The notes under the pieces: generated by a model
What the model was told of the DNA's origin: nothing
What the model saw: only the letters and a program-made list of their open reading frames with translations
Databases searched by the model: none
In this document: one piece after another, positions 9,265-33,430 of the stretch
How positions within the stretch are numbered: the stretch's first letter is position 1
How the letters are laid out: every line of letters begins with the position of its first letter
Position numbers and translations under genes: made by a program
NCBI RefSeq assembly: GCF_001649575.2
Contig: NC_051445.1
Location: 29,217,946 to 29,281,945, forward strand
Source of the DNA: Kryptolebias marmoratus
Taxonomy: Eukaryota > Chordata > Actinopteri > Cyprinodontiformes > Rivulidae
Direction: 5' to 3'
DNA length: 64,000 nt

Positions 9265-9952
9265 ACTCATTTCAGTTCAATTCAAAAATACTTTATTTAT
9301 CCTAAAGGGAAATTAAATGTTGTTTTAGCTCATTATCCTGGTGTCATTATAGATATTATAGATGCTGATTTCTGTGGCGGGGAAGGATCTCTTGTAGTGG
9401 TCTGTCTTGATGTCCTGGTATCCTCGAAGAGCCCCACCAGGTAAGCCTCGCTGTTTTCCTGCAGAGCCATGACAGACAAGCTCTGAAAGTGCAGGTCGGT
9501 CTTGAAGTCCTGGACGATCTCACAGACCAGGCGCTAGAAGGGCCAGCAAGTTTCTTCACTCCAAACATGTTTGAGGTGCTCTTGCCTGGTAGCTTTGGTG
9601 GTAATCTGCTTCAAGGAAGCTTTACCTCTGGTGGATTTACGGGCGGTCTGCTTGGTTCTGGCCATGACTGGACTTCAGGAGGTCTTCATGTTTAACACTG
9701 AAGAGTGAAAGATGTTATTCAGCTGCTTCTGATTGTTATGGTTATGCATCATAACAAATATGCAAAAGTAAAATGTTTCAGTAAAAAATCCTTCCAGCTG
9801 CAGAGCATCTGATACCAGAGGAAATATTCATCTAAAAAAAACAGTTTACATTCAGAAAAAATAGGGATTAAAGTTTTCAAAAGCAATATCTCAGAATGAA
9901 TGTAACAGAGTAACTCCCTCATGCAGCCACCTAGAGCAGCACAATTCTGGAA
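9265..9952 (-). mobile_element. histone H3-LINE chimeric retroelement, copy A
   Basis: Read on the minus strand this has three parts. (1) A leader of about 290 bp (9952-9666) matches the leader of copy B (32677-32994), including a 42-bp identical block (9869-9910 versus 32719-32760). (2) Histone H3 coding sequence (9665-9417). (3) A tail (9416-9265) encodes, out of frame with H3, a LINE-like C-terminus reading KTDHYKRSF and EISIYN, then TAAATAAAGTATTTTTGAAT and imperfect GAATTGAA repeats. The H3-to-tail junction lies just after the codons for FEDT, as in copy B. Homology to copy B stops near TTCCAGAATTG at the 5-prime end and in the tail repeats at the 3-prime end, as expected for a mobile unit. 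I infer a non-autonomous retrotransposon mobilised by a LINE. Confidence 0.7.
9417..9665 (-). pseudogene. histone H3 retro-pseudogene (copy A)
   Basis: The start codon at 9665 begins MARTKQTARKSTRGKASLKQ, which is the canonical H3 N-terminal tail with G12 changed to R and a few later changes. After GVKK (in a shifted frame) about 80 bp is missing, removing most of the alpha-N helix and the start of the fold. The sequence resumes with [39 protein letters not shown] and then leaves H3. One in-frame TAG lies near 9535. The last 35 residues of H3, including the alpha-3 helix, are replaced by LINE-derived sequence. It has no introns. It cannot make a nucleosomal histone. Confidence 0.9.
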
Positions 9953-9979
9953 TTTCATTTTAATTCTAGAAGGTCCTTG

Positions 9980-11350
9980 TTAGCTGGTAGGACTTCAAAG
10001 GCAGCTGAGGGATATTGGCAAGGCCATGGCTGTTTTGGGGTGGCAAAAGCTAGGGTGTGGGAGGAGTTCAGTGAGGCCTTGTATCGAGACTTTTGAGTGG
10101 CTCAGAGAAGCTTCTGGCAAACCATGAGGCAACTCAGACAGGGGAAGCAGTACTTTACCAACACTGTATATAGAGGAGGTGGGGTGCTGTTGACCTCAAC
10201 CAGTGATGTCATTGGACGGTGAAATTAATACTGTGAGGACCTTCTTAATCCCATCAACACATGTTCCATGGAGGAAGCTGAGTCTGGGAACTCTGAGGTT
10301 AGTCCACCAATAGCCTGGATCAAGGTTGCTGAAGTAGTCAAAAAGCTCAGTGGCGACAGGGCTCTGGGACAGACAGGATCCACTCTTAGTTCCTCAAGGC
10401 TCTGGATGCTGCTTTGGTTGACACGCCTTTGCAACATTGCGTAAATATTGTGGACAGTGCAACTGGATTGGCAGACCATGGTGGTTGTTTCCCCTAATAA
10501 GAAAGTGGTCTGGAGAGTGTGTTCCAATTACGAGGGAATCACACTCCATAGCCTCCAAGGTAAGGTCTATTCAAGTGTTCTGGAGAAGAGAGTCCTGTCA
10601 ATATTCAAACCTGAGATTCAGGAGGAAAAATGCGGGTTCCATCCTGGCCATAAAACATTGGACCAGCTTTTTACCCTCACTAGGGTCCTCAAGGGGAAAA
10701 TGGAGTTTGCCCAACCAGTTTACATGTTTTCTGGACATTCAACTGAGTTCTTCGGGTACCCTGCGGGGGTGATCTGGGAGTATGGGATTGGGCATCACTA
10801 CGGGCCAATCAGTCCCTATACAAATGATGTGAGAGTCTGGTTCACATTGACAGCAGTAAGTCGGACATCTTCAGGGTACAGTTGGACTTCGCCAAGGCTG
10901 CCCATTATCACCAATTCTGTTCATGACTTTTATGTACAGATTTTCTTAGTGCAACTAGGGAGTGGAAGTCTGGTTTGGTGGCCTCAAGGTTCTGTCTCTG
11001 CTATTTGCAGATGATGTGGTCCTGCTGATGTCATCATGCTGTGATCTCCAGCTCTCACTGGAGCAGTTAACAGCCAAGTGTAAGGCGGCTGAGATTAGGA
11101 TCAGCACCCTCAAATCTGAGCCTATGGTCCCTAGCCAGAAAAGGGTGGACTGCTCTCTCTTGTGTTAGGAGTGAGGTACTGCCTCAAGTGGAGGAGTTTA
11201 AGTATCTTGGGGTCTTGTTCACAAGTAAGGGATGATTGGAGTGTGACAGCAACAGACAGACCAGTGCATCTTTTATTGTAATGTGTACTCTATACTGGTC
11301 CGTTGTGGTGAAGAGGGAGCTGAGCTGCAAGGCAAAAATCTGTTTACTAT
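9980..11350 (+). mobile_element. Rex3 LINE, middle portion
   Basis: A plus-strand Rex3 (RTE-clade) copy truncated at both ends. It begins in the post-endonuclease linker (TGGTAGGACTTCAAAGGCAG) and covers the reverse transcriptase: the region for DWQTMVVV (10470-10500), VCSNYEGITLHSLQGKVYSS (10518-10577), CGFHPGHKTLDQLFTLTRVL (10631-10690), and LLFADDVVLLMSS (11005-11040). The YxDD-equivalent FADD is intact here, unlike the 55-57.8 kb copy. It ends near VVKRELS-KAK (about 11330). Multiple frameshifts and stops disable it. It starts within 30 bp of the 5-prime end of chimera copy A. Confidence 0.85.
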
Positions 11351-11373
11351 GGAGAGAAAGTGGTTTGAAATTA

Positions 11374-11517
11374 CCTGAGCGTGTGTAAAAGGATTTGTGC
11401 GTGTGTAAAAATATTTGTGGGTGTGTAAAAGGATTTGTGTGTGTGTAAAAATATTTGTGCGTGTGTAAAAGTATTTGTGCGTGTGTAAAAATATTTGTGT
11501 GTGTGAAAATGTACACA
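11374..11517. repeat. 20-bp minisatellite
   Basis: About seven tandem copies of a 20-bp unit, consensus GCGTGTGTAAAANNATTTGT, with the variable dinucleotide alternating between GG, AT and GT. The minus-strand open frames over it (threonine/histidine-rich repeats) are artefacts of the tandem array. Confidence 0.9.
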
Positions 11518-12464
11518 CAAGTCGCCAGATACACACACACAAAACTGCAGTTACGTACAGATCCAGTTACGAGTGCACAACTATTTTTGAGACTCATTTC
11601 ACGCTTCCGGGGAGCTCCCAGATTTGTGCGTAGATGTTGCGTTTAGGTGCTAGTAGAAAGCTGGGTCATCTGAGTTTTCTTCGGAACTTTTTTTTTTTCC
11701 ATAGTTCAACACGGTCAGTAAAACGTGCAAGTTTTAACGTCCACTTACTTCTGACGGTAGACCACAACCGCGATCACTGGGCTGAATCCGTGTATCATTC
11801 ATTCTTTCCATTTACAATTGACTATCAAAAATCAAATAATGAAAAACGGACTGGTTATTTTATTTATTTTTTTTTTTTAATATGACACCAAAAACAAATA
11901 AATGCCTGTTTTTTCGTATTTTACTTTGCAATCCATTTAGTATGTTTGCCTTAATAATTATGCACACCATATGCTGATGATCAGCACATGCAAAATACTA
12001 GGAGGAGGATATGCAAATGTAATTACTTTCCAGTCGCAATGAGATTTACCAAACGTGAAAGTGATTGTGGGTACTGTTTTTGTGTCTATATTTAGCATAG
12101 TTGAAAGGCAGATCCAAAATGACACAGAAATGTCAGCCATAATTGTGGTGAGAAGGAGGCACAGATACAATGACAGACGACGGAGAAAGAAAATCTACAG
12201 TATGTGTGTCCACAATTTTGGAATGTCAAAAATTTAAACTGTAGAGATGTATTGTCTGTCGAGCAATGCTATTTCTGATCTGCTGACTTGGAGCCAATCA
12301 CAAACAGAGGCCATGCAATCTCTCTTATGCACAAACTTCTGCATTTTCTGGCATCTGGGTCATTGCAGTGCACAGTTGCATTCAGTGCTGGGTATTCCCA
12401 GAGTAGTGTGTCAGCAGTGCTGTCCCAAGTGTTGAATGCAATGACATGCAGGATGGGCAAGTAT

Positions 12465-12850
12465 TTTTTTTTTTTTATTTATTTGTTTATTGGTTTTTTT
12501 CACTATATACACACATCAACAAAAGCAAACAAAAACAACCCACCCCAAACAAACAAGAAGCNNNNNNNNNNNNNNNNNNNNNNNNNNNNNNNNNNNNNNN
12601 NNNNNNNNNNNNNNNNNNNNNNNNNNNNNNNNNNNNNNNNNNNNNNNNNNNNNNNNNNNNNCTTCCTGGTGGAGGAGCCCGACGGGGAAAAAATAGGGAA
12701 ATCTTTTTCACGTTGTGTTCGAGGCATCCCCGGAATGTTTCAAAGTAGATAAGAACGAGTTTAACTGGAGGTAGATGTAAAATTATTTTTAGCCTGGAGC
12801 GGAGAAGAGCCTCAAGCGTCCATCTTGGTCCGTACCCACGTGATCCCCCC
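12465..12850 (-). mobile_element. L1-like retrotransposon insertion with 15-bp TSD
   Basis: The insertion splits the Harbinger transposase at MGKY. The 15-bp AGGATGGGCAAGTAT is duplicated exactly at 12450-12464 and 12851-12865. A poly(T) run follows the left copy, so the element is inserted with its poly(A) tail to the left (minus orientation). Its 5-prime end at 12850 reads GGGGGGATCACGTGGGTACG and, a little further, AAGATGGACGC. That start and the long duplication fit an L1 clade LINE that was internally deleted. A 100-N gap hides the middle, so the real length is unknown. Confidence 0.75.
12562..12661. other. assembly gap, 100 N
   Basis: Exactly 100 N, probably a placeholder of unknown true size, inside the L1-like insertion. 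Open frames crossing it are meaningless. Confidence 0.99.
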
Positions 12851-13799
12851 AGGATGGGCAAGTATATCCACTTCTCACGCAATCCGGAATCACTAAATGA
12901 CACTAAGCAGGGCTCTTATGCAGTTGCCGGCTTCCCCCAAACCATTGGAGCAATAGACTGCACTCATATGCAGCTTGTTCTGCCCTCAAACAGGGAGCAC
13001 ATTTTCTGAAATTGCAAGCACACACATTCTTTGAATGTTCAAGTTGTGTCTGACTCAAGTGGGGTAATTACAAAGATTGAAACAAAAACCCAGGGTCAGT
13101 GCACAACTCATTCATCCTCAGAAACAGAGTGATTTTCTCATTTGCTGAGAGTTGGAGAATATGAAGATGACTGGTTAAATCTATTTACAGTTTGTGAAGG
13201 CCATTACTCAAATTAATGCTGAATATGTGTTATTCTAATTTTTATATGAATGTGCATACCCCCTGGCGCACATCAGAACGACTGATATCGAGGAGCACAC
13301 CTGCAGCATGCTAAAAGGTTGGTTCCATTGCCTGGATCACAACAGAGTTGTGTTCTTATATAGCCCAGAAAAGGTTGCACAGATTGTAGTTGCCTGCTGA
13401 ATGTTGCACAATATCACACACTGCTACGAGTTGGAGCATGCTGCGCTGACTGTGGAAGACGCTCGTGTCTGGTCACATGAGGGACAGATTATTGCTGTGG
13501 GTTTCACAGACAGGACAATTTGATTCAAAACATCTTCTCATGAGCCATTTGAGGTATACATTTTATTGAAATCAATAATGTAAATAAACAAAAATGAAAA
13601 ACACCATGACGGGCATTAAATTTTGTGACATGTTTGAAAACAAACAAAAACTCTACTTTAACAGCCAACTGAGAATAAAACACCATGGATAAAAAATGTA
13701 AACATGATCATTGTGGCATTGACTATATCTATCTATATCTGACTATATCTCAAAACAATGTTCTTATTTGGGGCTTTGCGTTTTCACAGGTTGTGCTGG

Positions 13800-14534
13800 T
13801 GTCCAACCATGCCCTCTTCATTCGCCAGCAGCACAGGTGAAGGACCACTGCCACTCAAGGATCTCCAGACTGCTGCTAGGGTATTGACAGCCACGGTTAG
13901 ACTCGCCTTGTGTGTGCTACGATGGCCCAAGGGTTACGATGGAGGGCGTGTGCAGCACAGCTCTGACCTCCTGTGCAATGGCTTGTAGTGCATCTGTCTG
14001 TCTTTGTTGCTGCAGCAGCACCGAATTAATGTCATCACAGTCAGGATGCCTTTGGGCTCTGCTGGGACATTTTCTAGTGTAAGCAGATTAGAGGGCTATG
14101 GTAGAGATTTTTTGACATCTATTCTCTAGATAAGAATAGAGATGAACATTATTTTTTTAAAGTCATGGTGGACACAAAATCTAACTGAATAAACAAAATT
14201 ATTTCAAGTATGAAATTCTTTAATTCTGTATTCGATGTGTGGGCGTACCTTGGTTTACTATGATTGGGTCAACCAAGTCATATCCCTTGATTCCACCAAT
14301 CTGCTCATCAGGAAATGTTTCCTGAATACGCTGCTTAATTGGAGAGAGAAGGATCTCTTTTGCTGGGCCCCCACGTGTTTTATTTGAAGAAATTTTATTG
14401 TAGGAAAGTTTATTTTTTCTTTGTTTTTCTGAGGCTATCTGGCCATCTCCTTTCACTTCCTCTGGAGATCTTATGGTTTGGGTCACAGCATTCACCTTTT
14501 CACAGATAGCCTCCCAAATTGTTTCTTCTGACAA
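13800..14534 (-). pseudogene. Harbinger A Myb/SANT-like DNA-binding protein
   Basis: The second gene of a Harbinger element: a Myb/SANT-like protein that in active elements helps bring the transposase to the ends. From 14534 down, the minus strand reads WEAICEKVNAV, RSPEEVK, then a basic region and GGPAKEILLSPIKQRIQETF and GGIKGYDLVDP. This matches the layout of the MSANTD-type accessory protein (trihelix, then a GGP-LTP-E segment, then GG-GFD). A C-terminal helical piece QQQRQTDALQAIAQEV lies at about 14030-13970. It is convergent with transposase A. The helix around the W/K residues of SANT is partly corrupted (frameshift around 14450) and the C-terminal part is in another frame, so it is probably dead. 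Confidence 0.7.
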
Positions 14535-14829
14535 CGCTTAGATGTCTCTGCTGGAGTTCGCCAATGTGAGTATTTGCCTCCTCGACCAGTACCTTCTACT
14601 CCATGGCTTCAAACATTATTTAGGGTCCCAAGCCCGCGGAAGCAAGCGAACAGCCAATGCAAGGCATGGCCATTCGCCTGCTCCCAGCAGAGCAGGGAAT
14701 CCTATTGTTTTTGTACAGATTTTTCATCCATACAAATTCTTCTCCGGTAAAACACGTTAGCCAGAAAAACCAGAAACTGCTGGGGAAAAGCCAACCAGAC
14801 AGCCTGATAGAAAAATCCTACCGCTACTC

Positions 14830-15110
14830 AGACAAAAAAAAAAAAATCATGTTGTCCATATCTGGGGGGTGCTATAGCAAAGGACAATGTGTTTTTGCTC
14901 ATAACTCCTAAACTGCAAGTCCTACACTCAAAATCTTGACGGGACCTTAAAGTTTGGATGATTCTGCATCACTTTTACACTTCCGCCTAACTACATTTTT
15001 TGCTATAGCGCGATGAAATTGGTACAGATTATCAAGACCGCACCTTAAAATTATATCTTTAAGAAATATCAATCAATATCAATATCACGAAAGCTGTCAA
15101 AAGTACAAAA
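14830..15110. repeat. fragment of teleost interspersed repeat
   Basis: Phrases such as GGGGGGTGCTATAGCAAAGG, CTCATAACTCCTAAACTGCA and GCGCGATGAAATTGGTACAG belong to the same style of non-coding fish repeat as 7438-8380. It ends in short AATATCAATATC repeats. Confidence 0.4.
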
Positions 15111-15150
15111 TACAAAAAATAAATTCTTATATATATGTATATATATTTAT

Positions 15151-15470
15151 CAGGGTTTCCCCCAGAAAAGAGGCTAAACTTAGTGGTAGGTGGCTGTTCG
15201 CCGGCTGATTGTGATTTAGTAAAGAAAAAAAAGATTAAAGTTAACAGGAAAGTTAAAAATATGGCTATTTATTTACCACACGTCATATTAATATTTTCAC
15301 TAAGTACAAAACATGCCTACCGTATTCAGTCTTGTAAAGCCACTTGCTGAACTTCGGCTCAACTAACCATTTTTGGTTAAACCCGCTTGTTCGATGTTTA
15401 TTGCTGTGGCTCCAACAACGTGCTAACTCAAGGTGAAGGTGGCTCGGCCTTAGGGCTCATTAGAGTCACG
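15151..15470 (+). mobile_element. hAT-like element, left end fragment
   Basis: It begins with CAGGGTTTCCCCCAG, whose reverse complement is the right end of the element at 53565-54481 (ACTGGGAGAAACCCTG). From about 15290 it shares a long internal block with that element (ATATTTTCACTAAGTACAAA, then TTTTTGGTTAAACCCGCT). Homology stops near 15465, where Harbinger B coding sequence begins. CAGGG ends fit hAT-superfamily non-autonomous elements; no transposase is seen. Confidence 0.6.
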
Positions 15471-15483
15471 CAGGGCTCCGCGA

Positions 15484-16500
15484 ATGGCGCACAGACCTGA
15501 GCATGCGGTGGTGGTGTCGGAGCTGATGGCCGATCATGGCTACCAGAGAACATCGAAGCAGTGTAGAGATAAATTTAAAAAACTGAAGTGTGATTACCGC
15601 ATGATAAAGGACCGCAATGGAAGTAGTGGTTCAAACCGCAAAACATGGAAGTGGTTTGACCAGATGGACACCATTTACGGACATCGGCCATCTAACAATG
15701 GGAGGGAGAGTGGCTTGGATACGGCCTCTTCACTGCTGGAATCCATGATGGACGATGGTGAGTGTTTTTAACTGTAAGCATATTTTATATTAAAGTTACT
15801 TATTCCATCGGTGGTGAGTGTACTTTGAAAAAATAAACAAAATTAACTCTGACGCCATTGCCCCCGGATGCAGTTGGACAGCTAAGTACTAGCATCGATG
15901 CTAACTGTGAACTGTTCGTGTGTACTACTTTGGTCTGCAACTACATATCTTAATGTAGGTTTCCTGAAGTTTTGTGTTTCTTTTGTTTTAGAACTTTTCC
16001 CAAAATCGAACGATAACCTTCCATGCCACCTGGATCATTCCTCCGCTCCATTGGCCTTGATATTAAACATTAACATTTTTTTTCTGTTGCCCAAAGTATA
16101 ACACCTGTATTCACCTGTTTAATATCAGCACACTCATTGATTTTGCTTACAATAAAGCCTTTTCCTCAGTTGCAACACCTTTCTTTGTTTTAGGCCTTTT
16201 TCCACACTACAGTCTCTAGACTTGGTTTTTGTTGACCACTTGCCACTTCTTCTTTTCTGTCTAGGCAAGAGAAAGCGCGGCACAACTAAGGAGCAGTCAT
16301 TTGTTGCAGCAGTGCAGGCAGAAGACGAGAAGACGAGGGCACAGCGGGACCAACACGTCCATTTTGTGCTGTATGAAGCACGGGAAGCAAGAGAACAAGA
16401 GGCGGCCTTGAGGAGGGGAGATGCAACACAACGCTGCCTTTAATCAAGCGTTCCTTGGGATGTTGGGGGACAATGCACATGCTCTGACCCATAAGCATTC
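15484..16500 (+). pseudogene. Harbinger B Myb/SANT-like protein
   Basis: A multi-exon Harbinger accessory gene. Exon at 15484-15760: YQRTSKQCRDKFKKLKCDYR, then IKDRNGSSGSNRKTWKWFDQ and MDTIYGHRP, which is the second half of a Myb/SANT-like trihelix followed by the usual FYD-LLG-RP block. It ends at a GTGAGT donor near 15760. A terminal exon after TTTTCTGTCTAG (16264) reads GKRKRGTTKEQSFVAAV and a charged helix to about 16410, then shifts frame and ends with a hydrophobic helix. AATAAA follows at 16554. The N-terminal third of the SANT domain is missing because the hAT fragment lies directly upstream. It is convergent with transposase B. Confidence 0.75.
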
Positions 16501-17133
16501 TTGATTTTTGATGATTTTCTATACATTTCTACTATTACATCTGTTTTTGTTTAAATAAAAATGTTTTCTGAAGTCCTTGCATCATCATTTGTGTTGTTAA
16601 GAGTGTACAGTGATCTGTGAAATTTCCATTTGCACTTCAGCTTTAATGATTCTTAACTCTCCTGTTATGTTGCAGGTAAATCCACCCATTTTAAAATTCA
16701 AAAATCTAACAAAATAGTCCCAAGTACTTTTTCTGTATGAAGCCTCTTCTACTTGGCTTGGCTTAACATAAAATGAAAACAGTTCATTTTAGATATTTGC
16801 ATCCCCCATCTGCATTTATATTTTACATAGATACTGTTCAGGTCAAGTTCATCCAGCAGTCAAAGTTAAGAGTAAAAAGGGTCAAAACTTTCTTATTTTG
16901 TTCATTTATGGTTCAAAAACATTGATTAATAGGTGTCTCAAGTTTATTTATAAACATCATTCCTTGAAAAGCAAAAAGTTAGAAATTAAAAAAAAACAAT
17001 TTCAAGTATAAACAGATTTATTTTGTTAATAAAAACAAAATGCATACATTGAAATAAAAAAAAGAAAAACATGCTTTGAACAAAAAGAAAGCAGAGTAAA
17101 GAAATTAATTAATGGCAGTGAACAGATTTGAAA

Positions 17134-18522
17134 TTAACTGTTGCTGTTAACGAGGTACACCATAAGAGCATCTCTGACATGTCTGCCCTCATCCAAATCG
17201 CGTGGCACTCTTTGCCCTGGCTGCAGTGCAGCTGCTTCTGCATCCGGTAGGTCCAATGAGGTCTGAAATGACTCAACATGATTTTCACAAAGATTATGCA
17301 GAGCACAGCAGGTCAGCACCATAGACTTGACAAGTTCAACATCACAGTCATTCCTTTTGAGAAGGCAACGCCTTCTACCCTTCAGCCTTCCAAAAGCATT
17401 TTCGACCACAACCTGTGCGCTACACATTTTTTTGTTGAGGAACTGCTGTTCTGAAGTTAGTCTTCCAGTGTCGGGAAATGGTTTTAAGAGCCAGTCAAGC
17501 AAGGGATAAGCAGAGTCACCCAGGATGTAATAACCGGTAGCCACTGTGCCAATGTTCCTGATGTGAGGTGGAAACAGGTTTCCGCGGCTGGCTAGCTATG
17601 ACAGAGCGGACAGTCTGAAAACCCTGGCATCATGCGAGTTCCCTGACAGTCCAGCAAACAAATTCCAGAAGATTCCCTTTCCATCCACAGCAGCCTGAAG
17701 GATAATGGAATGCCAACCTTTTCTATTAAAATAGTGTGTGGTAGTGGTGTGGTGCTATGATGGGTATGTGGCAGCCATCAACAGCACCCACACACTGTGG
17801 GAGCCCCCACCTGTTTTCAATGTACATGGCAATTTCTCTAAAACGGTCTTCATTAGGGAAACGGATCTGCTCTGGCACCAACACTTTCTCTGCTGCAACA
17901 CAAAACTCCTGCACACACCTACACACCGTTGTAATGCTGACTCCAAAAGATGTCCAACACTCCTGTACTCTAAGCTAGTAGCCAGCTTCCACAGTGCAAT
18001 GGCCACTCTCTTCTTTAATGGTACACAATGGCGGAAAGTCATATGCTGTCGCTCCAGAGCTGGAGGAAGTTTGTTGCACAGGTAGATAAACGTTTGTTCC
18101 GTCATCCAGAAGTTCTGCAACCACTGCACGTCTGTGAATCCAGGAACAACAACATCCCACCACTCGGAGGCTCGGTTAAACGCCCAGACTTTTGGTTTGC
18201 GGCGCTGATTTTATAGGAGATTCATCTGAAAAAAACACACGCAGCATATTAGCTTGTTTCATCAACATCACACACGGTACTTTTACGCTCAGCATTGTTC
18301 GTACAGCCCACTAGCAGATTAGCATTAGTTTACCATCAAACGTCGTCTAGATCGTGTCCTATCTTCGTCTTCATACTGCTTTAGCACTTTCCACACTCTC
18401 CTGTACTTCTCCTGTGTGTTTCGCTTTACTGCTCGCAGCCTTCTCCTGTATTCTTCTCTTTGGCGTCTTGCCAAAAGCCACAGACTGAGCAAAATGTTTA
18501 ATAACACGACCATGTCCTCCAT
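17134..18522 (-). pseudogene. PIF/Harbinger transposase B
   Basis: Transposase of the second Harbinger. A first exon (18522-18328) encodes MEDMVVLLNILLSLWLLARR and a basic helix, with a donor near 18325. After an acceptor near 18226 the main exon reads RRKPKVWAFNRASEWWDVVV, DVQWLQNFWMTEQTFIYLCN and MTFRHCVPLKKRVAIALWKL; an early in-frame TAA lies near 18215. After a frameshift near 17940 it goes on with VLVPEQIRFPNEDRFREIAM and WGLPQCVGAVDGCHIPI (catalytic GAVDGCH motif present), and then YYILGDSAYPLLDWLLKPF (second D), VVENAFGRLKGRRRCLLKR (the E in VVENAFG) and VLTCCALHNLCE. So D, D and E of the DDE triad are all still visible, although a second break lies between 17726 and 17544. Confidence 0.9.
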
Positions 18523-22480: not shown

Positions 22481-22484
22481 AAAA

Positions 22485-23140
22485 TGGTACAGCTCTTCTG
22501 GGGGAATCCCAAGGCGTTCCCAGGCCAGCCAAGAAACATAGTCCCTCCAGCGTGTCCTGGGTCTTCCTCTGGGCCTCCTCCTGGTGGGACATGCCCAGAA
22601 CACCTCACCAGGGAGGCGTCCAGGAGGCATCCTAACCAGATGCCCGAGCCACCTTAACTGGCTCCTCTCGATGTGGAGAAGCAGCGGCTCTACTCCTGAG
22701 TCCCTCCCGGATGACTGAGCTTCTCACCCTATCTCTAACGAAGAGCCAACACACCCTGCGGAGAAAACTAATTTCAGCCGCTTGTATCTGCGAGCTCATT
22801 CTTTCAGTCGCTACCCAAAGCTCGTGACCATAGATGAGAGTAGGAACGTAGATCGACCGGTAAATCGAGAGCTTCGCCTTTTGGCTCAGCTCTCTTTTCA
22901 CCATGACAGATTGGTATAGCGCCCACATCACTGCAGATGCAGCACCAATCCGCCTATCGATCTTTTGTTCCATTTTTCCCTCATTTGTGAACAAGACCCC
23001 GAGATACTTAAACTCCTCCACATGGGGCAGGACATTTTCCCCGACCCGGAAAAGGCACTCCAGCCTTTTCCAGCTCAAGACCATGGCCTCCGATCACGGC
23101 CTGATGAAGCCAATAGGACTACATCATCTGCAAAAAGCAG
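22485..23140 (-). mobile_element. Rex3 LINE 3-prime part, minus strand
   Basis: A 5-prime truncated Rex3 copy that keeps the C-terminal part of ORF2. On the minus strand 23084-22632 is open: VLPHVEEFKYLGVLFTNEGK, IDRRIGAASAV, KAKLSIYRSIYVPTLIYGHE, RDRVRSSVIREGLR. It is followed by the usual segment ending in the codons for MPPGRLP and a PEELYHF-like end near 22490. Truncation upstream of the FADD active site is typical of abortive LINE integration. Confidence 0.9.
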
Positions 23141-23154
23141 AGACGCTCAGAGAA

Positions 23155-23770: not shown

Positions 23771-25400
23771 TCCTGGTTTATGTCACTTCAAATTCCAGTT
23801 GTGGAGAATTGTTTCTCTAAAGAAGCAGTTTAATAACTAGTTTTTTTTAATATATATTTGACATCTCACTACTTCTCCAGCAGGAATATAGATGGAGACA
23901 AGAAGAACTACAGTGTTCCAGTGAAGCAGGTGCAGTATCCTGGGTATCCAAGGCAATCCAGCAGTCCTCAACCCAAACCCTAGTTAGTGTTTGGAATCTA
24001 TCAGGTGAGCTTTTTGATCCGTTCCTGTTTAGCCAAAGCTGTTCTTTTCTGGTAACTTTATTAATATATACCAGACTGTAGTGCGGTGGTTGGAGACCCC
24101 CAGTGGACCCATCATTAACCAAAAGCTACAATAAATTATTATGATGGTCACCTATAAAATCAGTTATCAGATGAATGAGTGAGATTCAGTCATCCACAAT
24201 CTCTATTGTTCTTTTGAAACTGATATTTTATCAAGTTCTTTTGATCTCCTGTAATTGCTGTTCGTTTATAATGTTTGATCCATTAAGGAGCTCTGGGATT
24301 TATTTATTTGGGTGGTGGTAATGGTGATGGAAGAGAGGTATACTTTGAGGTGTTTTAAGCCTTAGTGTAAAATCTTAGTGAAAGTATTGCATTTTTTTAT
24401 CAGTTTTTATGTACTGCAGTTAATTTTGCATTCATCTCTTTTTAATTTTGATTTTACAATATACAGTTTGTTTATTTAAAAAGGGACAGGGTCCATCAAT
24501 CAACATTTAAATGAGCCATCTATCCATTTCCTTTTTCTGCTTGTCTGTTCTGTCTTGATTTTGTGATGGCTTTAGATCCCGAACTCAGATTGTTGACACA
24601 AAAAAGCACATACAAATAAGGTAAGTATTTTTTTTTTATTATTATTTTGAAAGTAACACAGGAAGTCAGGACCCACAATGTACAAGGGTGGGGCAAAGGT
24701 TAGAGATGGTTCTACTACTATACTGTACTGAAGAGGTCAATCTTTGTATGAAAATAGGTAGCAATCCTCCTTTTTTTTATTTTATAGGATTCCATGGAGG
24801 AGATGTTTTGAGTTGTCCAGATCAGGTGAGTAGTGCAGGTTACGTTTTCCAGGGAGCAGACAGGCAGCATGGAGGCAATGATTAGGAACTTCAGAGAGGA
24901 ACTTCAAAATGCACAATGATCTTCGAAGATAAGGTAAGAAGCCACACACGTCTGCCAAGAGAACCCAGGTAAGTTTTAGATTGGATAAATTCACAAGGAA
25001 AAGACAACAGGAATTCTTATGAGGGCTGAAATGAGAATGATTGGCATGTGACATTAATGGTCCAACAAGTATCTCATCTCAGTCTTAAATACTACATGCA
25101 ATAATATGAATTAGCAACAGCTGCGTGTCATGCCACCGGTATCTCACAGCACCTCAGGTGGAGTGACAGCAGAATGTTGTCACCGCTCTCTGTCTGCAAA
25201 GGAAGGGAAAGGCTGGACATACCATAATCATGAGAGCACCCCCTCGTCAGTGGTTGCCACTTGGCAACGAAGGGTATTTGTCAGGGCGGTTCCAATAAAA
25301 GTCAGTGATGAAATCAGGGTCAGGATAAACAAACAGAAAATTAAGGAGTACTCTTCTGGACTGTACTCTTCTGAGTTGACCAGATACTGGAGGTCACGGG
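23771..25400. other. no gene recognised
   Basis: Mostly A/T-rich. Short open frames (for example 24688-24885 and 25130-25585) show no domain. The second overlaps the Harbinger remnant that follows. Confidence 0.4.
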
Positions 25401-25404
25401 CCCT

Positions 25405-25860
25405 CCTGCAAACATCTAATGCCCCCTTTACACGGGCTCTAAAGGTCCCGGCTCCACTCTACTCTGCTTGCTTTGTGCGCAATTCCATCTGCATTTTTTT
25501 TCGAGGCCGGTCCCTGCTTCGTGGGTGGCGCAAGCTTAGCTCTTGTTCACTCATTGGTCGTGGGTGTGACCAGATGCAAGCATAAAGAGCGAACGGTAGG
25601 AATATAAACAACAGCGTTAGCTTACCCTGCAACGTTTATGCCATCTGTCCCCCAGCTGAAGGCACTGTAAAGCCTGAAATCTCCAGCAGATAACAGCTGT
25701 CCTACTCCGCGCAACAATCGCGGCATTCAGAGCATTTCTTCCACTGCGCCTCTCTTCCTGAAGTCTCAGGCGAATCCCCGTAAGTTTAAAAAACAGCAAC
25801 ACAGGGCCAATGTTGTCCATTGCGCTTCTGTTGTTTACACGACTTGCGCCAAGTTTTCGT
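25405..25860 (-). mobile_element. internally deleted Harbinger with transposase exon 1
   Basis: The left edge contains CTAATGCCCCCTTTACACGG and CTCTAAAGGTCCCGGCTCC, resembling the Harbinger B terminus (complement of GAAAATGGGCATTAG). On the minus strand from 25820 the sequence opens with MDNIGPVLLFFKLTGIRLRL followed by a basic helix, the same layout as exon 1 of transposase B (18522-18328), and ends at a GTAAGC donor near 25626. The rest of the transposase and the right end are missing; Rex1 sequence begins at about 25870. Confidence 0.5.
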
Positions 25861-25869
25861 GCTTGTAAG

Positions 25870-28770
25870 AAGCTGTTGTTTAGTCTAGGACTGAGGGTCG
25901 GAGCCTGAAGAGATGGTGGGCAGGTTGGGTCTTAGCCCTGTTCTGACATCAGGTCTTAAAGATGTGGCTCATTGCAGGTAGATCAGACCCAATGATCCTC
26001 TGTGCTGCTTTCATGACCCTCTGCACTGCTCTTTGATCTCAATTGTGGTATCCAGCATACCATGCTGTGATGCAGTATGTCAGGAACACGCATACCAACA
26101 CGCACTGATAAAAGTTCATGAGGAGATTCCAAGGCAGTCTGGCTCTCCTCAGGAAATAGAGGCATTGTTTTGCCATACTGATGATGTGGGAAGTGTGTGT
26201 GTTTTCAGGAAAGGTTCTCAGTGATATAAACGCCCAGAATTTTGAAAATGGGGACTCTCTCCAAAGCCTCTATGTTGATAATTACAGAAATAGGAGTCAA
26301 CCTTCTGAACCTTCTTTAGTCCACCACAATTTCCTTGGTCTTCTTGCTGTTCAGAATGAGATTGTTGGTTTTCTGCCTCTCTCCTGTATACTGACTTATG
26401 ATTATTGGAGATCAGCTCCACAACTGTTGTGTCATTTGTAAATCTAATGATGGTATTTGTCGTGTAGACAGGCTAACATTTGTTGTTTAAAGTTTTCAGC
26501 TTTGGGATGTGCACTATAGTGGTATACTTGAAACATGCTGGGATTACTGCACGTGAAAGGCTAACATTAAAGATGTTAGTGAATACATCAACAAGTTTGC
26601 CTGTGCATGCTTGTGAAACAAATCCTGGAACACCATCAGGTTCTGTCTCTTTCCTAGCTTTGACTCACTGTAATACATTCCTCACCTCATTTGTGTCCAG
26701 CCTGATCTGCTATTGGTCAGGTGCCAGTCTCTTCACATGTCCGGTGCAGCTGTCATTTTTGAAATGGACAAAGAACAGGTTTAGGTCATCAGCAAGCAGA
26801 TGGTCACCAATTACAAGCACAGTGTTGTTTGCTTTATAGTCTCTAATTGACTACAAGCATTGCAACAGGCGTCTGGGATCATTGTTGAAATTTCCCGCCA
26901 TCTTGAGCCTGCAATTATTTTTAGCTGCCTTAATGCAACACTTCAGGTTGTCTCTGGTGAGGCTATAAGCTGCTGTGTCTTTGGTCCTGTATGCAACTCC
27001 TGTATCTCCTGTCTGTGCAGGACATGGGAGGATTCATCTGTAATTCGTGAATGGCCAGAGGCACTGTAAAGTAGTATTGTGTCATTCATGAATAATTTGT
27101 CCAACGGACAAATGTTTTGTGTGAACGAACTGAACCAAAACACTTTATTCACTCATTCGTTTCTTACATAATTCAGTTGAGTTCAGCGTGAGCGGGAGTG
27201 GAGACCTGAGCAAATGTGACTTGAGATTCATTCACTGCAAAAAAACTCCATGTATTACTCAGTGAACCAAATATAGTCTAACTCTGCCCTGAGTGATTCT
27301 AACTGTTTCCTCCTCGCTGGGATTTGCTCTCAGGCTTTTGGCAGCGGCATACTTTTATTCAAACTAACTGCTAATGTTGAGTCAAGCTTCATGAAAATAA
27401 ACATACACATGCCCCGTCCCCATTATCTTAACAGACTAAGGTACACATAAAGTAATGAGAGGAGACAGTAGAAGAGTGAGTGAGACTCCCAACCGGAGTC
27501 TTCGAGCAGAGCAAGCTGCAGCAGCGAGGTGGGGATGGGGAACGGGGGGGTCTTAGGTCGTAACAATAATAAAAAGAAAAGAAAGAGGACTTGTTTACAT
27601 TTAGTGAACATGCTGCTTGCTGTTGTAGTATTGTGGCACTCACTAACTTTGGCTACACAAAGAGAGGAATCTGTCAGAGAGAGCAGGCGAGGGATTCATT
27701 TAAAAAACGTACTGCTGATTTGCGCATGTGCAGAAACATCGAACTGCTGCCTAGGAGAGATTTGTTTGCTTAGTAATGTGGTGGAAGTGGTGATGTTTAT
27801 TTGTGTACTGCCCAAATAAACTGCGTAAACTGAAGGATTCTTTGAACAAATCTTTTGAACGAATCATTTTATTGAAATGATACTAAGGATTCAGTACACT
27901 CAAAAGAACTGCTGTTCCCATCACTACCCTAAAGATGGACTGCTCTGTGTGCCCATTTTGCAGAACTGTTTTATGAAAGAGACTAGTGTTTGTGCTGAAG
28001 CTAATATAGGACAGTACAGAGGCTGTGTAGTGGTCCAGGTCTGAGCTATCCTAGGCAAAGACAGTCCAGTCTGTAATTTCAAAGCAGTCTTTCAAACAGG
28101 CCAAACTATGATCTCCCTGCTAGATGGTTTAGTCCTGCTTTGTAAGCTGGCAACATTATCAGAGAAAGATGATCAGATTGTCTGAGATAAGGGTAGGCCA
28201 CAGCCTTGTAGGAATTGTCCACAATAGTATACACATAGTCCAAATTTCTCTCTCCCTGTTTGGGCATTTGACATGCTGATAAAAAAGTTGAGTTTTGCTT
28301 GATTGAAGTTCCCAGCAACTCTAAAAACATATTCAGAATGAGACCTATTGTTTATTAACAGCTGTGGGCAGAAGCTCCAAGGCTAGCTTTGTGTTAGCCT
28401 GCATTGATTTGTAGATGCCAGTGATGTAAACTACAAAGAATTCCCTTGGTAAGTGGAAGGTCTGCATATCATGGTCATATATTCCAGATCAGATGTGCAG
28501 AGACTTTCTGTAATTTTAGTGTTCATGTACCAGTTACAACATCTGTCATCTGCTTTCTTATCTGCTACATCTAGAGGGTTACAGTTCAGCCATGTTTATG
28601 TGAAAATCAGCACACAGCGATCCCTGATGTTTTGCTGAGTTGTTATCATCAGTCTGATGTCATCCAGCTTGTTGGAGAGTGACCAGGCATGTGTGAAGAG
28701 TACTGTTGGGAGAGACAGTATTGGCATGGCAGCCTTTAGTTTAGTTTGTAGCCTGGCTCACTTTCCACCT
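25870..28770 (-). mobile_element. Rex1 LINE, RT core deleted, interrupted
   Basis: A minus-strand Rex1-type LINE relic. In order from 28770: SNKLDDIRLMITTQQNIRDR, the endonuclease segments, GERNLDYVYT, YPYLRQSDHLSLIMLPAY (28330-28106), DCFEITDW, then an unrelated insertion (27074-27927). It resumes with a basic linker, LDTNEVRNVLQ, EPDGVPGFVSQACTGKLVDV, SRAVIPACFKYTTIVHIPK (about 26510), then jumps to IIRFTNDTTVVELISNNHKS and later RVMKAAQRIIGSDLPAMSHI. The jump removes the RT fingers and palm between the motif for ACFK-TTIVP-PK and the FADD motif, and FADD itself reads FTND. It is dead. The family call comes from the overall order of blocks typical of Rex1. Confidence 0.85.
27074..27927. mobile_element. 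DNA transposon insertion in Rex1
   Basis: About 850 bp of unrelated DNA separates two Rex1 blocks that are adjacent in other copies. Its right end reads, on the minus strand, TAGTGATGGGAACAGCAGTT and its left end TAGTATTGTGTCATTCATGA, so both begin TAGTRNTG. TAGTGATGGGAA starts are common in a fish non-autonomous DNA transposon group. The inside has many GAACGAA/TTCATTCA motifs and no transposase. The formal class is unknown and terminal similarity is weak. Confidence 0.45.
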
Positions 28771-28828
28771 TGGGAAAAAAAATAATCATCACAAAAAGGT
28801 ATTTTTTGAGAAGATATAAATTCATTAC

Positions 28829-29228
28829 TGTCGGAACGAGTGGAGAAGGAGGCGAACCCAGAGCGCAGACTCATTTTAAATAAACTAATTTATTTAAATA
28901 AAGAAAATAAACAAAACAAAAAGATGGCATGGCAGCAAAGGCTAAACAAAAACGCAAACAAAATAATAACATGGAGAACGGAGCGACATGGTATAATCCA
29001 AACAGAAACGGGCACAGAGTGAGAAGTAGGAGATGACCGGGTTTTTAAGCACAGTAGGTGATTAGGGAAGTGGACACAGGTGGGTGTGGCAGGGAGACAA
29101 GTGAATAACTGAGGAGTGAATAGTGACAGAAAACAAAGGTACAAGTAACAAGATAACTGAACACAAACAGAAACCATGAAGACAATAAACAGAATACGAA
29201 AAACCCAAAGAAAACCCAAAACCCAACA
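28829..29228 (-). mobile_element. solo LTR with 5-bp target duplication
   Basis: A 400-bp unit starting TGTCGGAACGAG and ending AAACCCAACA, flanked by an exact ATTAC duplication (28824-28828 and 29229-29233). On the minus strand it has a TTAAAAACCCGG box, an AATAAATTAG polyadenylation signal and the closing AGTCTGCGCTCTGGGTTCGC. Related LTRs are at 52717-53250 (minus) and 59190-59618 (plus). No internal retroviral sequence lies beside it, so it arose by LTR-LTR recombination. The internal open frames are incidental. Confidence 0.85.
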
Positions 29229-29234
29229 ATTACT

Positions 29235-31200
29235 TTAATATACATCATTCAAAAATATTTTAAAACTGTTCAAACCAATTAGGATGAACTTTGTTAATTT
29301 GGGAAATTTAAGAAAAAACTTTCATGACTAAATTTTTTTCTACAGCAATTCTTCTTTGCAGTTGGTAACAATGTTCCTGGCTTAAACCCACATCCCACTT
29401 CCAAGCCAATTTTTTACTTTCACCTATTTCAAATAAACTTGGTCAACTTTCTTGCTGTGTGTGATACAAAAACACCATTACAAATTGCATTGGTTGCATC
29501 AGTAGTACCACCTAATAAAGAGGCTGGTACTTACTTACTGACACTTACACTGAACCTAACCATCCCCAGTTCATGCCTAAGCCCTAGGATCACTTACATT
29601 CTATCTATTTTACCTGCAACCCATTTTATCCAGCCTTAACTTTTAACCTTAATTTTATTACACTATCTCAGTAAGCCCAACCCTAATCTTAGCTTTATTT
29701 TATAGACTCTCCCAATATTTCCAGTTCAAACCTTAACCTCCAATTTAATAAATTTCCCAGTAAACCAAACCCTAAAACTTAACACTACAGATCCAACTCT
29801 AAACCTACACTCTCCTCCTGTCCCCTCTATATATTTCTCTCTCTATTTCTCCCTCCCTCTCTTCTCTTCCCTGGACCCCCCTTCCCACCCATCACCTCAT
29901 TTCTTTTCTGTTTTTTAAACCACCCACAGAACATAACAAACATAGTACAAACAGACACCAAACTGTGAGTACATTCACCCACCTGGTTGTGGGTCACACA
30001 CCAGACACATTACATTTCAAATCACCTTAGGATGCAGTCAGGGTTGCCCGATACATCCATGCATCATACACAATATAAAGTGAGAATCATGTACTCAAGA
30101 TTTGACCTGATATCGAGCCTTTCATTGATTTCCATACCAAACACTGAGCAGCTTTTGAGCATCACGCATGGATCACAAGATAGATTTAAAAAAAAAAAAA
30201 AACAAACAACAACAACAAAAATCAACTTAATATACCCTAGCCCTGAATTGAATTTTTTCATATTAGGACTGGGCTTTCCTCCCCAAAAGGACTACTAGTC
30301 CCAACAAGGTGGGTAATTATACTAGAAAATGTCCTAAGAAGGTAACTAAAACCAAGAACACACACCCACCCACAAAGAGGGTCATAGTAAACCAAAATAC
30401 CAATATCAACACACTTTGAATTTAATACATTTGGTAGGCCACATGAGATAAAATGGTTTCAAAATGGCAAAAAAATCATACTGAAATCAATGAAGGTAAT
30501 AATACTGCAGCTATTTAACTAAGAAAAGTCATCAAGCCCTAACCAAAGACTGAAAATCATTATACAATCAGTCCCTCTTCAACCTACAGTAAGTACAGAT
30601 ATTTAGATTGTAGAAATATGTTTAAACGAGACAAAAATATGAGAGAAAGAAAAACAGGAGCTGGATGATGAGTTCTTTCTTCAATTCAGCTGGTCACGTT
30701 GATTAAGATGTGAACTTGTACAATTCCAGCCACATTCCACCTTTAGCTCCAGGCCTTATCTGAAATTAAAAAAGTCCCCCTTTCCTTAGCTTTGAAGTTT
30801 TTCTGAGCCACTCAAACATTTCCATTTGCAGCGCATGGAAGCTAAAGGAGGCTTTGATTTTTGGAGTCGGCTTTGCCTGTCACTTTGTGTTACATGCTGG
30901 CTGATCTAAGAGCTAAAAGGGAGCGACGCCACCATGCTGTCAGCTTTTCCCACCCCTCCATTTCAGAGTCTGATTCACCCATTATTGACTCTTGCAAAAA
31001 CCAAATGATTGACAAAGAGTGTAAAGCTGGAGCTGAAGCAATGCAAAAAGAGATGAGATGAGACAAGATGTTTTTTTTTTAAACTGACAACCAGTTGTTT
31101 TGTTTTAAGGTCATTTTTTCACTTTTAACGTGACATGATTTGAAAAAAAAGGTACAATTACCTACTGACACAAGATAGAAATAAACTTTGTATATATATA
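29235..31200. other. no gene recognised
   Basis: Long stretch without coding sequence. 29520-29830 is C-rich with scattered AACCCTAA and CCTTAACC words but not a true telomeric array. Confidence 0.4.
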
Positions 31201-31206
31201 AAAATA

Positions 31207-31425
31207 CAGTTGAAACCAGAAGTTTACATACACTATATAAAAAGACATGATTTTTTTTCATACTGTCTGATGTGAAAACAGAATAAACTTTTCCCGATTT
31301 AAGTCAATTAGGATTTTCAAAATTAATTTTATTTGCTAAATGCCAGCATAAAGAGAGAGACAATGTTTTAAAGGCAATTTTTATTACTTTCTTCAAAATC
31401 AAAAGTTTATATACACTAAGATTAC
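31207..31425 (+). mobile_element. Tc1/mariner left inverted repeat (IR/DR type)
   Basis: CAGTTGAAACCAGAAGTTTA at 31207, preceded by TA, is the outer repeat of a fish Tc1-family transposon. A related inner block AAAAGTTTATATACACTAAG sits at 31401-31420, about 190 bp inward, the spacing of the IR/DR structures that bind Tc1-type transposases twice per end. No transposase or right end follows; the element is truncated. Confidence 0.7.
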
Positions 31426-31706
31426 TATGTCTTTAAACCTCTGAATGTAATTTAAGGCACACCTGAAACACTATCTTTATTCTGGATATATACATCCACA
31501 AAGTCTCTCTCTCGCTCTCTTTATATATATATATTAACGTGTGTGTGAGTGTGTGTGTGACGGGGGGGGTTAGTGCTGAAGATATGCACCAACCCATGAA
31601 CATCTTTTGGAGTAACAAGGTCCGCATCAGATGAAGCTTCCAGGGAACTAAAACTGCCCATATGGAAGAAGGTTGGATGAGAATTGTTTTTATTTATATG
31701 TACATA

Positions 31707-32321
31707 TACACTAAATTGCCAAAAGTATTCACTCATCTCCATTCACACACACATGAACTTGAGCAATCATTCCAATATTAATCCATAGGGTTTAACATGA
31801 TGTTGGCCCACCCTTTGCAACTATAACAACTTCAATTTTAACCACAAAGAGTTTTTATGGGAATTTTTGACCATTATTTTGAAAGCACATTTGTGAGGTC
31901 AGACACTGATGTTGGAGAAGAAAGCCTGGCTCAGAGTCTCTGCTCTAATTCATCCCAAAGGTGTTTTATCGGGTTGAGCTCAGGACTCTGTGCAGAAAGA
32001 CCACAGAAAGACAATCCATGAAGCTCTCTACGCACTGTTCTTAAGCTAATCACAACATTAGCACCTCAGCATCCTCTAAGCCCGCTTTGTGATTTTATGT
32101 GGCCTATCACTTTGTTACTGAGTTGCTGTCATTCCCAGTCACTTCCACTTTGTTATAATACCACTAACAGTTTCCTATGGAATATTTAGTTGCAAGGAAA
32201 CTTCACAACTGGACAGCAGTCTGCATGTATAGGTGCTTGATTTTATACACCTGTAGACTGACTGGAACACCTGAATTAAATTATTTGGATGGTGAGTGAA
32301 TGCCTTTAGCAATATAGTGTA
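31707..32321 (-). mobile_element. Tc1/mariner element, internally deleted
   Basis: Left end TACACTAAATTGCCAAAAGT and right end (complement) TACACTATATTGCTAAAGGC are inverted repeats flanked by TA. The inside, read on the minus strand, keeps the two edges of a Tc1-like transposase gene: near 32200-32100 the stretch for the HTH region (codons around TIPKE-like AACTAAATATTCCATAGGAA), and near 32000-31800 the C-terminal part (segment with AACCCGATAAAACACCTTTG). The catalytic middle is gone, leaving 615 bp. Non-autonomous and non-coding. Confidence 0.8.
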
Positions 32322-32676
32322 TATATATATATGAAAGAAAAATACCTAACACAAAGGATTTAAATGTAGACCTCTTTTATGCAGCTCTAACATAAAATAG
32401 GTCTAATGAAACTAACTACATATTTGATATTTTAGTATTTTTCTTTTCTTAATGTAATTTTAAAATATAGCATTATTTTACAGACCTATGTGAAGCTGGA
32501 CCTTCAAAAATTATATAAATCTTTCATGGGAGGTAGTTTTCTTTTTTAAAAAATTGTGAAGCATTTTTTCTTTTGATTTAAAAATGTAAAGGTCTACTAA
32601 CAAGTGCTACCTAGATGATATATGTAGAGTAAGGCTTCAGTACTAACATCCACTTTAATATTTATTTATTTACAAC

Positions 32677-33430
32677 TTCTAGAATTGCACCGCTCACGGT
32701 GGCTGCATGTTGGAGTAGCTCTGTTACATTCATTCTGAGATATTGCTTTTGAAAACTTTATTCCTCTTTTTTTTCTTGATGTAAATTACTTTTTTGGGAT
32801 GATTGTTTTCTCTGGCATTGAATGTTGTGCAGCTGGAAGGATTTTTACTAAAACCTTTTTACTTTTGGACAATCTTTATGGTTATATTATATTATGCCTA
32901 ATCATAACAACAAGGTGGCTTTTTCTTCCCCCACAATCGGGAGCAGCTAATTAACATCTTTTACTTTTCTGTGTTAAATGTGAATAACCCTGAAATCCAG
33001 AAATAAGCAGATCGCCTGTAAATCCACTAGGAAGCAACTCTACGCCAAAGCTGCCCCACCACTGGCGGAGGGAAGAAGCCTAACCTCTACAGGCCCGGTA
33101 CCGTGGCTCTCAGGGAGATCCACCACTACTAGAAGTTCACTGAGTTGCTCATCTGGAAGCTGCCCTTCTGGCGACTGGGAGATCGCCCAGGACTTCAAGA
33201 CTTACCTGCGCTTCCAGAGCTTGGCTATCATGGCTCTGCAGGAGGCCAGTGAGCCTTTTTGAGGACACCAGGACCGAGGACACATCAGAACAGACCGCTA
33301 CAAGAGATCTTTCCTGCCCACAGCCATCAGTATCTATAACAACTCTTTAACGAAACCAGGATTATGATCTACAGCAATATTTAATTTCTCTTTGGGAATA
33401 ATAAAGTATTTTTGAATTGAATTTTATTGA
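32677..33430 (+). mobile_element. histone H3-LINE chimeric retroelement, copy B
   Basis: The plus-strand counterpart of 9265-9952. The leader (32677-32994) aligns with copy A along its length, including a 42-bp identical block (32719-32760) and the shared stretch GCAGCTGGAAGGATTTTTAC (32830-32849). It is followed by H3-derived sequence (32995-33269) and a tail (33270-33430) reading, in its own frame, RTDRYKRSFLPTAISIYN, then AATAATAAAGTATTTTTGAA and GAATTGAATTT repeats. The H3-to-tail junction falls at the same place as in copy A (after GAGGACACCAGGA), with 9 extra bases. Shared junctions mean the chimera formed once and was then copied. Confidence 0.7.
32995..33269 (+). pseudogene. histone H3 retro-pseudogene (copy B)
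   Basis: Recognisable H3 pieces in several frames: the codons for KQ-A-KST-RKQL-AKAA (33006-33050), [10 protein letters not shown] (about 33095-33125), TELLI-KLPF-RL (33139-33177) and [20 protein letters not shown] (33180-33239) with QEASE. Unlike copy A it keeps the alpha-N/alpha-1 region, so the two copies carry different internal deletions and neither derives directly from the other. Start codon lost, frameshifts and a TAG near 33128. No introns. Confidence 0.9.

Follow-up and report, generated by a model that had tools for sequence, protein, structure and literature searches.

The genome of Kryptolebias marmoratus (680 Mb) contains a family of retroelements in which part of a histone H3 mRNA lies between the 5' end and the 3' end of a LINE. 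At least 98 distinct loci on 26 contigs were found when three sequence searches were combined. Each search scored 40 candidates and the total is therefore a lower bound; the sequence of 52 of these loci was read. We consider it probable (approximately 0.83) that the family descends from a template-switch chimera of LINE 5' end, H3 mRNA and LINE 3' end, which is non-autonomous and mobilised in trans by the LINE.

Two copies, A and B, are located in the window, i.e. the whole stretch of 64,000 nucleotides that was analysed. A BLASTN comparison of copy A (reverse-complemented) with copy B, both including their flanks, yielded two blocks only, which corresponded to the leader, parts of H3 and the tail, and the flanks did not align. 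Both copies had a leader block of ~42 bp in common, and in both H3 stopped after the FEDT codons and gave way to the same LINE-like tail, which ends in AATAAAGTATTTTTGAATTGAA. The internal H3 deletions differed between the copies, and copy B additionally lacked the H3 ATG. Apart from the missing ATG of copy B and the end sequence of the tail, these features had been reported in a preliminary description of A and B as two H3-LINE chimeras with leader, H3 and tail, an observation that was correct and, given the copies found genome-wide, understated. The borders given in that description are better shifted, from 9265-9952 to ~9265-9955 for copy A (~9955/9265, minus strand) and from 32677-33430 to ~32675-33430 for copy B (plus strand). 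The two copies consist of the following parts:

9707..9955, minus: copy A leader, portion derived from the donor LINE's 5' end; 86% identity to the consensus leader
9666..9706, minus: copy A H3 mRNA 5'UTR (ACTCTTCAGTGTTAAAC...), reaching the ATG; similar to that of host gene L090
9417..9665, minus: copy A remnant of the H3 coding sequence (codons 1-108), internally deleted, ends with FEDT
9287..9416, minus: copy A LINE 3' part, end of the RT ORF and 3'UTR; 85% identity to the consensus tail
9265..9286, minus: copy A GAATT-type terminal repeat (sequence)
32675..32962, plus: copy B leader, mostly LINE 5' end; 82% identity to the consensus leader
32915..32971, plus: copy B putative mini-intron, 57 bp, starting with GT, acceptor AG mutated to TG
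32963..32996, plus: copy B H3 mRNA 5'UTR remnant; a small deletion removed the ATG
32997..33269, plus: copy B remnant of the H3 coding sequence, internally deleted, ends with FEDT; 78% identity to the consensus H3
33270..33410, plus: copy B LINE 3' part with AATAAA; 93% identity to the consensus tail
33411..33430, plus: copy B terminal AATTGAA-type repeat (sequence)

With copy B as the query, at least 40 loci including B itself were found in its own genome (59 matches), and the resemblance of A and B is therefore not due to chance. Sixteen other loci aligned in one piece to >95% of the length of copy B, with one exception that is included in this number: at C16:2048784, the match comprised 747 of 754 positions with 72% identity. 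The consensus of 41 copies was 776 bp long and sharply delimited; its H3 ORF is fused at FEDT, and GAATT repeats form its 3' end. The ends and the H3 and tail junctions were common to the copies, and the flanks differed from locus to locus. Truncation of the 5' end within H3 was observed at four of eight additional loci read. The consensus contained the H3 ORF and only the final codons of an RT ORF, and thus no reverse transcriptase. The family is dispersed and multicopy, with a single 3' end and variable 5' truncation, as is characteristic of non-autonomous LINE derivatives. The genome-wide copies with one junction and differing flanks thus support the earlier proposal of a dispersed, non-autonomous, LINE-related element carrying H3. 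Of the shared junction and variable target duplications anticipated there, only the junction was found: long target-site duplications were not detected, and matches of 7-9 bp, at a chance-like level, were present in 8/34 copies with a 5' end. The ends were GAATT-type repeats rather than the poly(A) of processed pseudogenes, and all copies read carried the LINE leader, the LINE tail or both, none being host mRNA alone. The head is not of the SINE type, since it is the 5' end of a LINE and no pol III RNA gene was indicated by Rfam at gathering thresholds in the whole window. Viral contigs contained no match to exact patterns of the leader block or the junction, and no histone-carrying LINE family was found in the open-access literature on H3, LINEs, chimeras and the letters of the tail.

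The tail of the family corresponded to the C-terminal RT-ORF codons and the 3'UTR of a LINE in the same genome (L066, L067, L071 and L072), with an identity of 81-94% over ~120 bp in L066, L067, L069, L071 and L072. This LINE was found with a query extended by LINE-like residues upstream of the tail; in the tail-only (query 33262-33430 of copy B) and leader-only searches, all 11 loci read were H3 elements. L072 contained Pfam RVT_1, and its second frame matched ALKBH8_N, a model known to match fish LINEs. Most of the consensus leader corresponded to the 5' end of L073 (263 columns, 70% identity, E 2e-36), a LINE copy of ~3.2 kb bearing both the leader and, 3.2 kb downstream, the tail. Two frames of L073 had no Pfam match, and H3 gave only a chance-level match (E 0.83) in its readable part (1119 bp of L073 being N). 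A donor LINE for leader and tail, as sought in the preliminary description, was found for the tail, and for the leader at 70% in L073 only. With this identity, and with the leader present in only one of the four LINE copies fetched, the precise subfamily of the donor was not identified.

Approximately 40 bp before the H3 ATG matched the 5'UTR of L090, a canonical H3 gene of the host, starting near the predicted cap site of that gene. The match extended from -39 with BLAST and, by eye, from an initiator-like A at -44, which is 29 nt after the TATAAA at -73. A leader representing an H3 gene's own long 5' region, which the preliminary description had named, for a nearby H3 gene and combined with differing tail junctions, as evidence against its reading, was rejected, as only the last ~40 bp were H3 and the remainder was LINE. 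LINE 5' sequence makes up most of the leader and is followed by an H3 mRNA 5'UTR, which goes beyond the preliminary description. In rarer forms, the H3 C-terminus is complete and ~25 nt beyond the stop are retained. In 10 aligned fuller loci, ~25 nt separated the H3 stop from the start of LINE sequence; the stem-loop of L090 begins 27 nt past its stop. The similarity of this post-stop stretch to host 3'UTRs was weak (BLAST reached 3 nt with L090 to 23 nt with L089), and the stem-loop marks the 3' junction only approximately. The FEDT junction probably arose secondarily, by an internal deletion in a chimera that once held the whole H3 C-terminus, a second point beyond the preliminary description. 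The fuller loci showed two kinds of LINE/H3 5' junction, which counts against proof of a single origin. L063 might be taken for an independent chimera, but L086 combines the 5' junction of the abundant form with the full H3 3' end; via L086, a common history of L063 and the main family appears likelier than independent capture.

Since the source parts match in this way, the element is composed of LINE 5' end, H3 mRNA and LINE 3' end. We infer that three RNA parts were joined. A canonical, replication-dependent histone H3 gene contributed its mRNA, and a single LINE contributed both its 5' end, with the 5'UTR and the initial codons, and its 3' end. The LINE reverse transcriptase would have started copying the LINE RNA at its 3' end, switched to the H3 mRNA approximately where the histone stem-loop begins, copied it up to the cap and switched back onto the LINE RNA. 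A later internal deletion from the FEDT codons of H3 to the LINE tail may have generated the abundant form. A pol II promoter would come from the 5' portion of the LINE, and the 3' tail may be what the reverse transcriptase recognises in trans, because this tail is shared with the LINE and the copies are 5' truncated. In this reading H3 is a passenger, the full protein being dispensable for spread. The LINE-H3-LINE order would also result at the DNA level if a processed H3 retrocopy had inserted into a genomic LINE, the LINE interior had been deleted and the remnant had become a transcribed master. The two 5' junction types among the fuller copies and the only rough position of the 3' junction are consistent with such an origin, which is nevertheless unlikely: in the abundant form, the H3 part sets in near the predicted cap site and lacks host promoter sequence, and by eye neither junction has poly(A) or a duplication. 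It is quite improbable that H3 was a preferred switch partner of this LINE rather than a random passenger, captured perhaps twice, with an ORF first kept open because a shortened H3 bearing a new tail eased the element's way to or into chromatin. This reading invokes an S-phase H3 mRNA without poly(A) that ends in a stem-loop, and draws the possible double capture from the two LINE/H3 5' junctions.

The proposed template-switch chimera resembles SVA elements, which are composite, LINE-mobilised in trans and have subfamilies and splicing. SVA depends on an L1 of the poly(A) type and combines Alu, VNTR and SINE-R parts, whereas in the fish family the LINE's own 5' and 3' ends flank a host mRNA. 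Host or other RNA is also joined to LINE sequence in the WEIRD/Mg-SINE/MGL elements of Magnaporthe grisea (33 bipartite, one tripartite; PMC2104539) and in human L1/mRNA chimeras (17 mRNAs named in chimeric insertions; PMC13174262), which those accounts attribute to one or two template switches or trans-splicing. Unlike the chimeras described there, the elements reported here have LINE sequence at both ends and form a multicopy family with subfamilies, probably from one chimera. A hAT DNA transposon that captured H3 in Pseudocercospora fijiensis and relatives likewise multiplied the H3 coding sequence into hundreds of decayed copies, as described in PMC6710886, but it is a DNA transposon of fungi and not a LINE chimera of a fish. 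A LINE-derived 3' tail is also known from the fish pairs UnaSINE/UnaL2 and HAmo SINE/HAmoL2, where the SINE tail is common to the partner LINE; SINEs tabulated in that source have heads derived from tRNA or 5S rRNA genes (PMC3747384), whereas the family has a LINE 5' head and an mRNA body. A LINE-mRNA chimera would have founded a family instead of dying on arrival, it seems because the mRNA is flanked by LINE sequence on either side. One genome contains the donor LINE, a candidate donor gene and both fuller and deletion forms, which makes the steps from chimera to parasite directly testable.

Of the 39 copies whose leader could be read, 17 precisely lacked a GT-AG segment of mostly 50-57 bp; as a chance yardstick, 0.28% of all 40-80-bp leader deletions would remove exactly GT..AG. 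The copies look as if some transcripts had been spliced, and pol II is therefore favoured over pol III transcription. Transcripts would be expected to start at CTTCTAGAATTG and to splice at AAG^GTGG...CAG, with the donor in the LINE part and the acceptor in the H3 5'UTR, and this putative mini-intron would have been lost from some of them, because the segment is exactly absent. At least 2-4 changes of splicing state were forced by starred branches and 6-8 occurred on the trees, counts that are confounded by mosaic copies (e.g. L021, L027/L028), that include L047 wrongly as spliced for the whole-element tree and that, for the H3+tail tree, leave out L047 and L044. In the leader of copy A, the putative mini-intron stretch was partly deleted.

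H3 decays neutrally in the copies. Divergence was equal at the three codon positions (6.1/6.6/6.4%), and 11/34 copies were without in-frame stops (0.33 expected), indels being disregarded in the stop count and the partial copies L024, L026, L031, L033, L036, L044 and L047 omitted from the stop/indel count. A lineage with a stop was amplified: TAG at codon 68, also the stop of the copy A remnant, was present in 15/41 copies, among them every member of a four-copy clade that is starred in both trees. A five-copy TAG68 clade (L029, L032, L034, L037 and L038) was starred in the whole-element tree only and unstarred in the H3+tail tree. H3 as a maintained gene is not supported by these codon-position, stop and lineage data, and the family would yield many H3-like pseudogenes, which annotation could mistake for histone genes.

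The consensus ORF was open over 134 codons, and five of 41 copies (L014, L016, L017, L025 and L040) read through from the ATG for 133-134 codons, so that some copies do keep H3 open, a point raised in the preliminary description. Additionally, 9/10 fixed differences between the family and L090 (host base in <3 of 41 copies) were synonymous, against a random expectation of 25%; such an excess would arise just as well if the host gene had evolved or if the donor had been another H3 gene. The open frames and synonymous differences would fit a functional chimeric histone with a new C-terminus that aids the spread of the element or acts in chromatin, but with equal divergence of codon positions, stop-free copies at the neutral rate and an amplified TAG68 lineage, we regard such a function as very improbable. 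Copies A and B stand in inverted orientation at a distance of ~23 kb, with a third copy (L024) 13 kb outside the window. This arrangement would suit a local inverted or segmental duplication of a single H3 pseudogene, rightly thought less likely from the outset and now refuted, with a probability close to nil, by flanks that do not align and by the presence of at least 98 loci on 26 contigs.

The two chimeric elements in the window, each made up of a leader, a histone H3 coding part and a LINE-derived tail, were delimited by aligning them with each other over leader, H3 and tail:

9955–9265, minus strand: H3 element, copy A
32675–33430, plus strand: H3 element, copy B

They aligned in two blocks with identities of 71% and 75%, and no alignment was found outside these parts, in agreement with the preliminary description, which had confined the homology to the element. 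Both leaders were 82–86% identical to the family consensus. A third H3 element (C16:29294707–29295290) was located only 13 kb past the right end of the window, giving three copies within about 70 kb.

The proposal that these elements belong to a dispersed family rather than a pair was borne out by searches of the window's own assembly (680 Mb), in which the window spans C16:29217946–29281945. With copy B as the query, at least 59 matches were obtained, falling in 40 loci (1168 candidates, of which 40 were scored), and the leader and tail queries gave at least 40 matches each (40 of 545 and 40 of 1024 candidates scored, respectively). The union comprised at least 98 distinct loci on 26 contigs; copy A was not among them, and two of the 98 formed a single tandem duplication. 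Sequence was read at 52 loci (B, 39 others from the B search and six each from the leader and tail searches), while the remaining 46 were known by their match alone. The tail matches started at query position 1 (39/40) or 2 (1/40), within the H3 FEDT codons. H3 sequence preceded the tail in all 11 further loci (read in sets of three and eight), with truncation inside H3 in four of the set of eight. The tandem duplication (L048, C10:1746300–1753300) had a period of 5022 bp and contained an H3 element and a gypsy-like ORF; its units were 100% identical across the 1979 bp readable in both, indicating a recent duplication or an assembly artefact.

In an alignment of 41 copies (39 fetched loci, A and B), conservation dropped at a common point at either end. 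The 776 bp consensus started with CTTCTAGAATTG and terminated in AATTGAA repeats. Its 134-codon ORF contained H3 codons 1–108 to FEDT, followed by RTEDTSG..., a translation of the tail in a different frame; read in frame +1, the tail encoded TDRYKRSFLPTAISIYNNSL, the end of a LINE reverse transcriptase (RT) ORF. A motif like the TTTCCCTTTGGGAT-AATAAAG end of the element was also present in two unrelated stretches (L013:2508–2549, 78%; L014:2634–2663, 90%). Since other repeats come after it there, this type of 3' motif may be common to several retroelements of the genome.

A LINE-like C-terminus reaching upstream of the tail was used as a query for the donor LINE (150 of 1312 candidates scored, 14 loci fetched). 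In L066, L067 and L072 a LINE ORF end ran into the same kind of tail, and RVT_1 was found in L072. L071 was a truncated LINE with a tail identity of 94%, L069 a short LINE tail, and L065 and L068 were other LINEs. L062 had a tail without H3, L059, L060, L061 and L064 were elements of the abundant form (H3 ending at FEDT), and L063 and L070 had complete H3 C-termini. A second search with the C-terminus of the donor-type LINE (150 of 2330 candidates scored, four loci fetched) yielded L073, a LINE with both ends and the only one of the four showing the leader; the suggested comparison with LINEs points to a candidate donor. Its 5' end (1873–2127) aligned to leader positions 5–263 and its 3' end (4933–5045), about 3.2 kb away, to the tail; positions 3167–4285 were N and not readable. 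The L073 ORF contained putative endonuclease-like motifs, which Pfam did not confirm.

For the H3 donor, a query taken from L063, spanning its H3 C-terminus, the sequence after the stop and the beginning of the LINE part, gave at least 41 matches (40 of 42 candidates scored). Sixteen, including L063, ran from H3 codons through the stop into LINE; the others were shorter, several being the H3 part or the LINE part alone. Four loci with matches confined to the H3 part were examined. L087 was a decayed LINE-H3 copy with another repeat after the stop, and L088, L089 and L090 each encoded a full-length canonical H3 of 136 aa with a histone stem-loop downstream (93.2%, 91.4% and 93.8% identity to the consensus H3, respectively). 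In L090, the candidate donor gene, TCTTCAGTGTTAAACGCGAAGAA preceded the ATG, as in the H3 element. This match began at −39 in BLAST; by eye it could be traced to position −44, an initiator-like A that lies 29 nt downstream of TATAAA (−73). The L090 stem-loop started 27 nt past the stop codon.

Twelve fetched loci had a complete H3 3' end (L063, L070 and L077–L086). LINE 5' sequence was detected in five of these; in L070, L079, L081 and L085 it passed its limit in the abundant form and nearly reached the H3 ATG, whereas in L086 it met the H3 5'UTR at the same junction as in the abundant form. On the 3' side, the stop was followed in all ten loci aligned by a variant of ACTCACC..CACATTTAACACAACA, roughly 25 nt long, and then by LINE sequence also present in L071. 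The post-stop stretch only partly resembled host H3 3'UTRs, with BLAST matches continuing beyond the stop codon for between 3 nt (in L090) and 23 nt (in L089). The most plausible reading of the abundant form is that a chimera of this fuller type underwent a FEDT-to-TDRY deletion, which does not account for about 20 bp at its site, AGGACCGAGGACACATCGGG.

The leader was readable in 39 copies. In 17 of these a segment was precisely missing that starts with the GT following AACAAG and ends with the AG preceding TGTTAAA, and the other 22 kept it in whole or part; complete segments were mostly 50–57 bp (maximum 71). Of the putative splice sites, the donor belongs to the LINE-derived part and the acceptor to the H3-derived part. 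One copy without the segment (L046) nevertheless grouped by its leader with the intron-bearing L018 (support 82/83). The number of splicing events is not firmly countable because copies are mosaic. From their sequence we infer that H3 elements were probably transcribed, spliced and mobilised in trans.

Divergence of the copies from the consensus was 8.0% of sites, or 6.6% once CpG-like sites were excluded, and was equal at the three codon positions. In-frame stops were absent in 11/34 copies, where the substitution rates of the copies themselves predict a fraction of 0.33. A TAG at codon 68 occurred in 15/41 copies, including every member of two clades, one of four copies (L021, L033, L041 and L045) that is starred in two trees and one of five that is starred in a single tree. 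Compared with L090, the family differed at ten sites at which fewer than three copies had the host base, and 9/10 changes were synonymous. This was the sole result leaning towards a functional H3; the synonymous excess may instead mean that the host gene has changed or that a different H3 gene was the donor.

Other repeats were also observed in the window. At 39442–44007, an open frame of 1324 aa on the minus strand lies between 223-bp direct repeats 99% alike; by eye it resembles Ty3/gypsy gag-pol, and the whole would represent a recent-looking LTR retrotransposon. Two frames at 17134–18210 (minus strand) resembled a PIF/Harbinger-type transposase. Several copies of another LINE, in direct and inverted orientation relative to each other, were located at 10444–11341, 22540–23094 and 55290–57766 and contained RT-like frames.
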